A stretch of DNA of 64,000 nt from Candidatus Zixiibacteriota bacterium. Lineage in GTDB: Bacteria > Desulfobacterota > Binatia > UBA9968. The notes beneath the pieces are model-generated. The model ran no database searches. It saw only the letters and a list, made by a program, of their open reading frames with translations, and was not told the origin of the DNA. A program made the position numbers and the translations under genes. How positions within the stretch are numbered: the first letter of the stretch is position 1; every line of letters starts with the position of its first letter. The DNA is taken from contig DATLYW010000048.1 in the NCBI GenBank assembly GCA_035574315.1, forward strand, positions 248,001 to 312,000, written 5' to 3'. Of this stretch, positions 46,340 to 54,338 are shown one piece after another.

Positions 46340-47317
46340 ATGAGGAGGCTGCTGCCCGCGCTGGCGTGTGCCCTGTTCGCGCTCGCCGAATCGGTTTCGG
46401 CCCAAACCCAGCGAATCGCGGCCGCCTACAGCGCCGTGAGCGCCACACAGACCGCCTTTTACGTCGCGAAAGAGGCGGGGCTGTTCGAAAAGCACGGCAT
46501 GGTGGTCGATCCCGTGTACGTCGCTTCGGGAACGAAGGTCGTCCAGGCGATGATCGCCGGCGAGTTCCCCGTGGCGCTGGCCGGAGGGGTCGTCGTCAGC
46601 GCGAATCTCGCGGGCGCCGACGTGGCGGTGATCGGGGGGATCGTAAACGTCCCGGCCTTCTACGTCGTCGTCCATCCCTCGATCAAGAAACCGGGAGACC
46701 TCAGGGGCAAAGCTCTCGGGATCACCCGCTACGGCTCGTCCACCGACTTCACGCTCCGCTATCTTCTCAAGCAGTGGGGACTGGAGCCGGACCGGGACGT
46801 CAAGATCCTGCAAATGGGCGGCCAACCCGAAATCCTGGCGGGACTGAAGGCCGGAGCAATTCAGGGCGGCAACTTCAGCTCGCCGGGCGAGTTCAGGGCG
46901 AGAAAGGCCGGATTCACCTTGCTGGCCGATTTCCGTAAAGTCGGGCTCGACTATCCGACCGTGAGCCTGGTCTCGACCCGCTCCACCATCAGGAAGGACC
47001 CCGATACGGTCAAACGTTTTCTCATGGCCTATAGCGAGGGCGTCGAGCTTACCTTCCGCAACCGGGAGCTTGCCATGAAGGTTCTGGGCAAGTACACGCG
47101 CGTCAGCGACCGGGAAACCCTCGAGGCGGCCTATGCCTACGCCACCAACTTCATCGAGCGCCCGCCCCGGCTGCCGTACAAGGCGATCGACACGATTCTC
47201 GCCCAGCTCGCGGAGACCAGCCCCAAAGCCAGGGGCCACAAGGCCGCGGATTTCATCGATCCGACGTTCTACGACGAGCTGGAGAAGAGCGGCTTTTTCC
47301 GATCCGCGCGGCGCTGA
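46340..47317 (+). CDS. Solitary NMT1-type ABC substrate-binding protein
   Basis: A 325-residue periplasmic protein with a signal peptide (LLPALACALFALAESVSAQ). The body has FYVAKEAGLFEKHGMVVDPVYVASGT, VHPSIKKPGDLRGKALGI and a C-terminal FIDPTFYDELEKSGFF. CAGGAGGAG lies before the ATG. It is a clear paralogue of the protein at 62353. No ATPase or permease is adjacent; the gene instead heads the LigB/GDT1/LigA cluster, suggesting that its ligand feeds that pathway. Confidence 0.9.
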   Translation: MRRLLPALACALFALAESVSAQTQRIAAAYSAVSATQTAFYVAKEAGLFEKHGMVVDPVYVASGTKVVQAMIAGEFPVALAGGVVVSANLAGADVAVIGGIVNVPAFYVVVHPSIKKPGDLRGKALGITRYGSSTDFTLRYLLKQWGLEPDRDVKILQMGGQPEILAGLKAGAIQGGNFSSPGEFRARKAGFTLLADFRKVGLDYPTVSLVSTRSTIRKDPDTVKRFLMAYSEGVELTFRNRELAMKVLGKYTRVSDRETLEAAYAYATNFIERPPRLPYKAIDTILAQLAETSPKARGHKAADFIDPTFYDELEKSGFFRSARR

Positions 47318-47369: not shown

Positions 47370-47388
47370 AGGTTCGCGGAGGTAGGCC

Positions 47389-48231
47389 ATGGCGGAAATC
47401 GTCACGATCATCGGCATCACCCATAACCCTTTCATGCCGCGGTTGTTCCAGCGGCCCGACCGGCCGGCCGGATGCGACAAGGTCATCGAGCGGATCGCCA
47501 TGATGCGCGAGCGGCTCGCTGCCGCCCGCCCCGACGCCCTGGTCGCCATCGGCAACGATCACCTGCACCAGTTCTTCATGGACAACATGCCGGCCTTCAT
47601 GATCGGCAAGATGGATTGCTACGACGGAACCTTCTACGACGAAACGCGCGAGTTCGGGCTGCCGCGTTGCAGGCTCCCGGGCGACGTCGAGCTTTCCGAT
47701 GCCCTCATGGAAGCGGCCTTCGATCGCGGGATCGATTTCGCATACTCGAACGAGCTCACCGTCGACCACTCGATCGTCGTCCCGATGATGTTCGTGCGGC
47801 CGGAGATGGACATCCCGATCGTTCCGATTCTCACCAACTGCATCGCGCCGCCGATGCCGCGGCCGCGGCGCTTCTTCGAGGTGGGAAAGGCGATCCGCGC
47901 GGCGATCGACTCGCTGCCGGGAACGAAGCGGATCGGCGTCCTGGTGAGCGGCCATCTCTCGCTCGAGGTCGGCGGGCCACGGCAGTTCGAGCGCAGGCTC
48001 ACCGACCCGAGCTTCGACGCCGCCGCGGTCGGCTGGATTCAGAACGGCGACATCGACGCTGCCGCTGCGGGCTGCACGCCCGAGCGGCTGATCAAGGCCG
48101 GCAACATGACCTCGGGCTATCTGAACTTCTTGATGATGATGGGCGTGGCCAACGCGGCCAGGCCGGCGCATGCGGAAGGGCTGGACGCGGGTTTCCCCGC
48201 CGTTCCGTTCTTCCACTGGGGCCCGCAGTAG
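47389..48231 (+). CDS. LigB-family extradiol dioxygenase homologue with altered active site
   Basis: A 280-residue class III extradiol dioxygenase (LigB) fold protein. Two expected iron ligands are present: His12 in ITHNPFMPR and His58 in IGNDHLHQF; VDHSIVVPM near 127 also fits. Where the family has SGGLSH with the catalytic His, this protein has SGHLSLEVGGPR (Leu192). Where LigB-type enzymes have AGxEGxE with the third iron ligand, it has AGNMTSGYLNF (Met240, Gly243). A normal ring-cleavage reaction is therefore doubtful. GGAGGT precedes the ATG. It lies 71 bases downstream of the binding protein, with a LigA-like gene after one small gene. Confidence 0.82.
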   Translation: MAEIVTIIGITHNPFMPRLFQRPDRPAGCDKVIERIAMMRERLAAARPDALVAIGNDHLHQFFMDNMPAFMIGKMDCYDGTFYDETREFGLPRCRLPGDVELSDALMEAAFDRGIDFAYSNELTVDHSIVVPMMFVRPEMDIPIVPILTNCIAPPMPRPRRFFEVGKAIRAAIDSLPGTKRIGVLVSGHLSLEVGGPRQFERRLTDPSFDAAAVGWIQNGDIDAAAAGCTPERLIKAGNMTSGYLNFLMMMGVANAARPAHAEGLDAGFPAVPFFHWGPQ

Positions 48232-48273: not shown

Positions 48274-48546
48274 ATGGACTGGAAGATCCTATCGACGGTT
48301 TTCGTCTCCGTGTTCGTCGCCGAGCTGGGCGACAAGACGCAGCTTGCGACCATGCTGTTCGCCTCCGACAGGGAGATCAGCAAGATCGCGGTATTCGCCG
48401 GAGCGGCGCTCGCCCTGGTTCTGACCTCGGCGATCGGCGTGCTCGCCGGCTCCGCGGTCTCGGGCTACGTCAGCGAGCGGCACCTCCGCTACGTCGCCGG
48501 CCTGGGTTTCATCGCGATCGGTCTGTGGACCTTTTTCCGCACCTGA
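48274..48546 (+). CDS. Half-size GDT1/TMEM165 (UPF0016) membrane protein
   Basis: A 90-residue membrane protein with three helices and one copy of the signature AELGDKTQLATMLFA (E-x-G-D-K-T). UPF0016 transporters carry Mn2+ or Ca2+ and usually have two such motifs in about 190 residues, or are encoded as adjacent half-size pairs. Only one half is found here, so a homodimer is likely. It stands between the LigB-like and LigA-like genes (42 and 12 bases away); a role in supplying or clearing metal is only an inference. Confidence 0.88.
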   Translation: MDWKILSTVFVSVFVAELGDKTQLATMLFASDREISKIAVFAGAALALVLTSAIGVLAGSAVSGYVSERHLRYVAGLGFIAIGLWTFFRT

Positions 48547-52634: not shown

Positions 52635-54338
52635 TCACCTGCGGCCTTTCATGGCCGGGTAGAAGTATTCGAACGTCCCGGCCTCGATTTTGCGCATGAC
52701 CTCTGCAAACGTCTTCCAGGGATCCCGCGCGTAGTCCTCGAATCTGCCGGGGGCGTTGATCCCCGGGATGTAGGGCGACCAGTCGTCGCTCAAGACCTCG
52801 TCGGGATTGCCGTAGCGGGAAGCCAGGGCCCGGATCTCCGGGCTCTTCAGCGCGTTCACTTCCCCTTTGTCGATCAGCGTAATCCAGGTGTTCTTCGTGC
52901 CGCGCACCCTCACCCGATAAGTCGGAAGCGTGTTGTGGATGTGCCACCAGTGATCGTTCGGCAGTGCATGCTGCTTGGCGAAGTCCATCCACTCCTTGGA
53001 CTCGACCGCCTTGTCCGGGCCGTGATCGAGGCGCAATCCGAAGCCCCAGTGAATCACCCCGGCGTTGTTGCGCTCGGAGGTGTTGACGCCCATCCCGTTC
53101 TCGTCGGGACGCCTGAAGAATTTTGGATTGGTACCCATGCCCGCCTCGTAGAGCCACCAGTAACCGGGCTGGTCGTGGAACGGGTAAGTAAGCTCGTTGA
53201 TCTTGGGATATTTGAGAAATTCCCGCCACAGCTCGCCGTAGATCCCGCCGCCCTTCACCTCGGTCACGTAACCGTCCTTCACGCGCACCTCGATGCGGGG
53301 AAAGGACCCGGTATGGTTGCTCGTGCCGGCGAACACGCCGTTGACCTTGACGAGGAACCGGGGATTGTACTTCTTCGTGAAGGCGGGATAGTCCACGGAA
53401 GAATAGGGGAATCGCCCTGTCGCCTGGTGCGGGAACATGAACAGGTGGCCTTGCTGATAGGCCCCCTCGGCCCAGGCCTTTGCCTGCTTTTCGTCGAGCT
53501 CGAAAGCGAAGCTGGTGCCCTCGGGGTCGCTGACTTCCACACGATCGGCCCATGCCAGGGGTTCGATCACACGCTCCTCGGCCAGCCTCCAGATGTCGCC
53601 GGGAAACGTCGCCGCTTTGTTCATCAGCTCGTAGCGGTTGTCGAAAATGAAGTTGCCGTAGAACTTGCTGCCGTGCGGCTCGATGCTCCTGCGCGTCACG
53701 GTGCGTCCGCCCCGGCGCCAGAAAACGGCGTTGACCTCCTTGTGCTGGTCGAGGTACCTGACGATCGCTTCGGCAACGCTCTTCCCGCCGAACCGCCGCC
53801 CCAGGTCGATCAACTCCTTGGAACTCTGCTCTTCCTTCTCGAACACCGCCCGGTAAAGGTCGGGCCGGCGTTCCTTGAGCCATCTCTTCGGGATCTCCGG
53901 GTCGCTGAAGCGTTGGAGGATCCAGGCTCGCGCCTCCATGTAGCCGTGCTCGGCGGTAAACCATCGGTTCGCCTTGACCGCCTTGACCGCCTGCTCCTTG
54001 CTGACGCCGAGGAGCTGATGCTCGGGAACCATCTGTACCTTGACTCCGCGTTCCTCATAGGCGCGCCGGATCGCCTGCAGGATCATTTCGTCCGCCGTCG
54101 GTTCGGTGAAAATTGCCACCGTCTGGCCTTTTTCGACGAGACCGAGCGGGGTCCTTCCTCCCGTCTGCCTCACGGCCGCACGGGCGTAGGGCATGACGTC
54201 CTCGATGGATTTCGGCGGTCTGAGATAAGACGGGAACCGCGGCTGCGGGTACTTGGACCGTTCGGCACCCGAAAGCGGCGCCACCGTGGCGACGAGCAGG
54301 AACACGAGCGTTGCGCTGAGTCTTTTTCCCATGGCCAT
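52635..54338 (-). CDS. Secreted M29 (aminopeptidase T)-like protein, function uncertain
   Basis: A 567-residue exported protein: a signal peptide (LSATLVFLLVATVAPLSGAE), then GQTVAIFTEPTADEMILQAIRRA, similar to the first domain of M29 aminopeptidases. The C-terminal third has FRKVNG-like sequence, GVFAGTSNHTGSFPRIEVRV, EAGMGTNPKFFRRPD and AGVIHWGFGLRLD, matching the metal-site region of M29 enzymes (the usual E.GxGTNP and H motifs); the last HxD motif is less clear. M29 enzymes are normally cytoplasmic, so secretion is unusual. The Met at 54332 has the better-spaced GGAGGG. The ABC permease and ATPase follow. Confidence 0.65.
   Translation of the reverse strand: MAMGKRLSATLVFLLVATVAPLSGAERSKYPQPRFPSYLRPPKSIEDVMPYARAAVRQTGGRTPLGLVEKGQTVAIFTEPTADEMILQAIRRAYEERGVKVQMVPEHQLLGVSKEQAVKAVKANRWFTAEHGYMEARAWILQRFSDPEIPKRWLKERRPDLYRAVFEKEEQSSKELIDLGRRFGGKSVAEAIVRYLDQHKEVNAVFWRRGGRTVTRRSIEPHGSKFYGNFIFDNRYELMNKAATFPGDIWRLAEERVIEPLAWADRVEVSDPEGTSFAFELDEKQAKAWAEGAYQQGHLFMFPHQATGRFPYSSVDYPAFTKKYNPRFLVKVNGVFAGTSNHTGSFPRIEVRVKDGYVTEVKGGGIYGELWREFLKYPKINELTYPFHDQPGYWWLYEAGMGTNPKFFRRPDENGMGVNTSERNNAGVIHWGFGLRLDHGPDKAVESKEWMDFAKQHALPNDHWWHIHNTLPTYRVRVRGTKNTWITLIDKGEVNALKSPEIRALASRYGNPDEVLSDDWSPYIPGINAPGRFEDYARDPWKTFAEVMRKIEAGTFEYFYPAMKGRR

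Follow-up and report, generated by a model that had tools for sequence, protein, structure and literature searches.

Type II (class III) extradiol dioxygenases of the LigB superfamily are marked by two iron-ligand histidines (His12 and His61 in LigB), a glutamate ligand (LigB Glu242, DesB Glu239), a second pocket histidine (LigB His127, DesB His124), and a histidine acting as the base (LigB His195, DesB His192). An inactive large subunit is known in the 2-aminophenol 1,6-dioxygenase family. DesB binds its iron through His12, Asn57, His59, and Glu239. Dioxygenase activity was undetectable in a His192Phe variant of DesB (PMC3962378). MEMO1 holds iron through His49, His81, and Cys244, the cysteine occupying the position of the LigB glutamate; its Asp189, located three positions N-terminal to His192, is near the iron, a D189N substitution leaves iron binding unchanged, and no dioxygenase activity was found (PMC11081632).

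The LigB-like ORF and its active-site residues

The 280-aa open reading frame (ORF) studied here is intact in the window, that is, the whole 64,000-nucleotide stretch of Binatia DNA that was analyzed (Table 1). It belongs to the LigB superfamily, as determined by its match to Pfam PF02900 (102.6 bits with a cut-off of 26.3; E 2.5e-29) and by its LigB fold, and sequence searches matched it with the solved LigB-fold enzymes MhpB, LigB, and DesB. Its matches to the NCBIfam class III extradiol models were far under the curated cut-offs, and thus it falls into none of the named NCBIfam subfamilies.

Table 1. Positions of the LigB-like gene, its active-site codons, and adjoining features in the window
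Feature	Position	Strand	Evidence or remark
NMT1/SsuA-type solute-binding protein, next gene upstream	46340..47317	+	PF09084, E 1.2e-21
GGAGG, probable ribosome-binding site	47378..47382	+	6 nt 5′ of ATG, read from sequence
LigB-like large subunit, 280 aa, without catalytic His and Glu iron ligand	47389..48231	+	ATG start; ORF, PF02900, fold match
His12 codon, corresponding to iron ligand His12 of LigB	47422..47424	+	His in 109/109 clade sequences
His58 codon, equivalent of LigB His61/DesB His59 iron ligand	47560..47562	+	His in 109/109 clade sequences
His127 codon, equivalent of LigB His127/DesB His124	47767..47769	+	His in 109/109 clade sequences
His189 codon, new His specific to the clade (LigB and DesB have Gly)	47953..47955	+	107/109 in clade, 0/21 outside
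Leu192 codon, replaces catalytic base (LigB His195, DesB His192)	47962..47964	+	Alignment and clade counts
Gly243 codon, replaces iron ligand (LigB Glu242, DesB Glu239)	48115..48117	+	Alignment and clade counts
GDT1-family membrane protein, 90 aa, between the two subunit genes	48274..48546	+	PF01169, E 1.7e-22
LigA-like small subunit, 103 aa	48559..48870	+	PF07746, 35.6 bits, cut-off 25.3

A profile of 59 members of the clade to which the ORF belongs was then aligned to LigB (PDB 1b4u), and both altered motifs were gap-free. GTGGMSH, which carries LigB His195, paired with SGHLSL (Leu192), and SGSEGVE, which carries Glu242, paired with AGNMTSG (Gly243). The initial annotation had placed His12 (THNP) and His58 (NDH) at iron-ligand positions, and both were found there in all 109 clade sequences; its reading of SGHLSL, followed by VGGPR, at the place of SGGLSH and of AGNMTSG as collinear with the ligand block was borne out as well. 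Because the alignment with LigB is gap-free, the lost iron ligand is a Glu-to-Gly change at position 243; of the two residues originally singled out in this block, Gly243 is therefore the ligand position, but Met240 is not. The claimed absence of the catalytic histidine and of one iron ligand, the carboxylate, was thus confirmed by alignment and across the clade. His12 and His58 match the two iron-ligand histidines, and the second pocket histidine is kept as His127. The GG of TGGLSH, in turn, now reads GH, giving a new histidine, His189, three residues N-terminal to the lost base. Since the Glu ligand and the base His are absent, we did not file the protein as a type II extradiol dioxygenase; it may nonetheless work like one.

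For structural comparison, an alignment-based AlphaFold2 model (pLDDT 88.7, pTM 0.91) was used, the single-sequence model being useless (pLDDT 34.5). VIA-align found the best match in DesB (3wku; Z 32.2, 267 residues, 2.7 Å, 22% identity), with LigB also matched over its full length (Z 31.2), 2-aminophenol 1,6-dioxygenase subunits (3vsh, 7txy, 8ihg) at Z about 25, and MEMO1 (7kq8) at Z 15.9. Purine nucleoside phosphorylases matched weakly (Z about 6), which was judged to reflect a common arrangement only. DSSP on the model ended strands at residues 10, 56, and 187, so that His12, His58, and His189 each stand two residues past a strand end, a predicted placing that is no more than suggestive.

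Conservation, phylogeny, and distribution of the clade

To compare the substituted positions, 109 clade sequences were set against 21 outgroup sequences that included LigB and DesB; the outgroup is a small sample of database matches, making the contrast strong but not exhaustive. Position 243 was Gly in 108 clade sequences and Ala in one, whereas all 21 outgroup sequences had Glu. At position 192, the clade had Leu (107) or Asn (2) and the outgroup His (19) or Leu (2); at position 189, the respective counts were His 107 and Asn 2 versus Gly 19 and Ser 2. His12, Asp57, His58, Asp126, and His127 were invariant in the clade (n = 109), while Gln61, Glu85, and Arg87 (each 109/109) and Lys74 and Thr241 (each 108/109) were conserved in the clade and not typical of the outgroup. 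The clade formed one side of a branch and was monophyletic with a support of 100/98, and its SH-aLRT support was 98 when residues 186-197 and 236-247 were masked. Whether close homologues keep the substitutions had been raised at the outset; they are kept across the whole clade, and this fixation demonstrates that the pattern is not due to chance.

Leu192 also occurred in two outgroup sequences, L049 (Shinella) and L137 (Ochrobactrum); these formed the sister group of the clade (support 99/93), and both had Ser189. Because this pair has Leu192 yet keeps Glu243, loss of the base probably preceded that of the carboxylate. Within the clade, L043 and L044 carried Asn192 together with Gly243 and His189. 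Compared in these two pairs of sequences, His189 tracks the loss of Glu243 and not that of the base. It is not strictly required across the clade, as two members, L068 and L072, have Asn189.

The clade was found in Binatia, in Rhizobiales and other Alphaproteobacteria, in Actinomycetota, and in Chloroflexota, with at least 526 relatives confirmed in one scan of species genomes. Among Binatia, the class of the window, 25 of 148 genomes gave a match at E <1e-100 and two more contained partial copies, all carriers falling within a single order, in two families. Some distant PF02900 members of the same phylum, whose C-terminal motif was not reliably alignable, were left out of the counts. Viral contigs were also searched, and no relative was found. 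Comparison with ten relatives (Nei-Gojobori) gave dN/dS values of 0.08-0.26, which are approximate because dS is about 1 or more, and the gene is under purifying selection.

Several unusual copies were observed as well. L068 (L068:1216-2061), a divergent paralogue with Asn189 and Ala243, lies on a 6.5 kb contig in which no LigA-like gene was found; its sibling L069:819-1664, in one genome with several clade copies, is typical and has a LigA-like gene. In the genome of the window itself, the LigB paralogue L002 (G000:C40:22753-23436) has NDQ in place of NDH, at the second iron-ligand His, and keeps TGGLSH and the C-terminal Glu, which is a different kind of deviation.

The LigA-like partner and the gene neighborhood

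In the window, 42 nt separate the LigB-like gene from the GDT1 gene, and 12 nt separate the latter from the LigA-like gene. Of 113 clade loci, 106 have a LigA-like gene in the same orientation, which in most cases immediately follows the LigB-like gene; some of the seven loci lacking it are short contigs. A separate LigA-type small subunit is thus encoded with the LigB-type subunit, as in the LigAB-type alpha/beta arrangement, and a functional heterodimer of the two is a well-supported prediction. No second intact LigB-fold ORF was found in 115 loci covering 1.29 Mb; near clade genes, only short C-terminal LigB-fold remnants were detected, in two contigs each present twice, and the three other LigB-family genes of the window's own genome are all on other contigs. 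A catalytically complete LigB-fold partner encoded alongside, as for AmnA, was accordingly not seen at these loci, and because of this an AmnA-type inactive subunit is unlikely, although a partner might be encoded elsewhere in a genome.

The remnants (L052:9382-9537 and L053:4942-5115; also L014 and L016) are of about 50 aa, bear a GNM(T/I)(T/S)G motif, and follow the intact gene, other genes having been inserted; in the contig stretches covered, no LigA-like gene was found. In L053, two ORFs of the insertion resemble, by eye only, a BrnT/BrnA toxin-antitoxin pair.

Regulators and transporters are among the clade neighbors. In Actinomycetota and Rhizobiales, the neighbors included an amidohydrolase (51/89 loci), a class III CoA transferase (50/89), an IclR regulator (46/89), and a short protein resembling citrate synthase and bearing the annotation citryl-CoA lyase (37/89), these counts being approximate because ORFs were chosen by homology. 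Recurrent neighbors in Binatia were the upstream solute-binding protein, a zinc-type dehydrogenase, and GDT1, the last lying between the subunit genes in the window and in several, thus part, of the Binatia loci and not elsewhere. This context suggests the breakdown of an aromatic or organic acid and points to no particular substrate; a literature search gave no paper linking LigB to citryl-CoA lyase and CoA transferase. GDT1 is a divalent cation/proton antiporter family, and a link to the enzyme's metal is only a thought. A 567-aa ORF on the minus strand (52635-54338) matched nothing in Pfam or NCBIfam at E 0.01, and its homologues recur near the LigB-like gene in three loci. At L113:4033-5544, the neighboring amidohydrolase carries a twin-arginine export signal (PF10518), which is unexpected, since a LigAB-like enzyme should be cytoplasmic.

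Possible functions and comparison with known systems

The best explanation of the whole is a LigAB-type heterodimer with a rebuilt active site, encoded in a catabolic operon, and we propose it tentatively, as a reading that falls a little short of probable. A divalent metal, probably iron, would still be held by His12 and His58, since both are invariant, and such a metal site is moderately likely. The third ligand would be His189, or else an open position would be filled by substrate or water; a stand-in role of His189 for the carboxylate is plausible from its co-occurrence with the loss of Glu243 and from its position. The initial annotation had named a histidine reaching the metal site from nearby, for example His189, as part of what would refute it; this too is plausible, given the nearness of MEMO1 Asp189 to the iron. 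The substrate would be a small (hetero)aromatic or a related organic acid, and the reaction, which is a guess, would occur at the ring-opening step of LigAB-type enzymes, without the classical base. In wider terms, it is possible, rather than probable, that the clade is a LigB-fold family, spread over several phyla, whose metal site (His12, His58, and His189) contains no carboxylate and which does without the classical base; it would then open a (hetero)aromatic ring or carry out a different metal-dependent reaction along a path so far undescribed in the LigAB fold.

Redox chemistry might also have been abandoned altogether. A LigAB-like hydrolase, lyase, tautomerase, or decarboxylase, in which His12, His58, His127, and His189 serve as acid/base or binding residues around no metal or a non-redox metal, would agree with the loss of both residues most tied to O2 chemistry from an otherwise strictly conserved pocket, and the clade-typical polar Gln61, Lys74, Glu85, Arg87, and Thr241 suggest another substrate or reaction. 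Dioxygenase activity of DesB, moreover, is abolished without His192 (PMC3962378). Nevertheless, strict conservation of the two iron-binding histidines of LigB and DesB and the LigA-type partner suggest that the metal pocket is still used, and we regard a non-redox enzyme as rather unlikely. The opposite case, an ordinary extradiol dioxygenase that takes its carboxylate from Glu85, Glu122, or Glu193 and its base from another histidine, could draw on Glu85 and Glu122 being present in 109/109 clade sequences and on Glu193 being nearly invariant in the 59-sequence alignment. However, nothing puts Glu85 or Glu122 at the metal, and L043 and L044 lack Glu193 along with Glu243, while L049 and L137 have both; this explanation is therefore quite improbable.

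The initial annotation had proposed either lost activity, with a binding or structural role, or a new chemistry. Loss of both the base and the carboxylate ligand would suit a non-catalytic subunit such as that of the two-subunit aminophenol dioxygenases, but the lack of any other intact LigB-fold ORF in the 115 loci, the LigA-type nature of the partner, the three remaining pocket histidines that are invariant in 109 sequences over several phyla, several invariant new residues, and purifying selection disfavor it and make it improbable. Of the two original options, it is thus the new chemistry, or the rebuilt site, that fits better. Sequencing error, frameshift, or a decaying pseudogene is scarcely credible. 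Nothing in the window points that way; among relatives, L034/L066 is frameshifted near the C terminus and the divergent L068 has Ala243 and no LigA-like gene found nearby, but the ORF is intact and under purifying selection, and more than 100 further sequences carry the same substitutions, which effectively refutes an error at the changed sites.

Several annotated clade members are labelled "extradiol ring-cleavage dioxygenase" though two residues regarded as essential are absent. This label should not count as shown for the clade; it may be wrong or may hide a new metal site. If the metal centre is rebuilt, the known range of non-haem metal sites in the LigB fold widens; if not, many annotations are wrong. 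The clade, apparently an unstudied as well as widespread branch of a ring-opening enzyme family, forms together with its sister group, in which the base is lost and Glu kept, a natural series for testing the need for the LigAB base and carboxylate ligand. No characterized clade member was found in the open-licence literature. PydA (3-hydroxy-4-pyridone dioxygenase) was considered and rejected as one, because its DDHFENH and EWICGM, compared by published conserved stretches, are unlike NDHLHQF and LNFLMMMG.

Among known systems, DesB (gallate dioxygenase, PDB 3wku) is the best fold match and has the equivalents of the three retained histidines (His12, His59, and His124), but it possesses the Glu239 and His192 that are both missing here, and its LigA-like part is fused, whereas it is a separate gene in the window. 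LigAB (protocatechuate 4,5-dioxygenase; PDB 1b4u, 1bou) shares the full-length fold, the equivalents of His12, His61, and His127, and the LigB plus LigA make-up; it differs in having Glu242, His195, and Gly where the clade gene has Gly243, Leu192, and His189, and the LigA-like gene is downstream in the window but upstream in the Comamonas ligAB pair. 2-Aminophenol 1,6-dioxygenase (PDB 3vsh, 7txy, 8ihg) likewise has the LigB fold, yet both of its large subunits are LigB-fold proteins, whereas in the window the partner is of the LigA type, with no second LigB gene nearby. MEMO1 (PDB 7kq8) is a LigB-fold relative in which the Glu ligand is replaced and iron is still bound through two His; it is much more distant, keeps the base-position His192, and has Cys rather than Gly at the ligand position. 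We know of no LigA partner for MEMO1. The offset between its Asp189 and His192 would be structurally equivalent to that between His189 and Leu192, and by analogy with D189N, which still binds iron, position 189 need not be a ligand. Gentisate and salicylate dioxygenases and halogenases are examples of cupin-fold iron enzymes with 3-His or 2-His sites. Such non-haem enzymes provide a precedent for carboxylate-free, O2-using iron sites (PMC4019311, PMC11264262). Their fold is unrelated, and their likeness to the clade would be mechanistic only.
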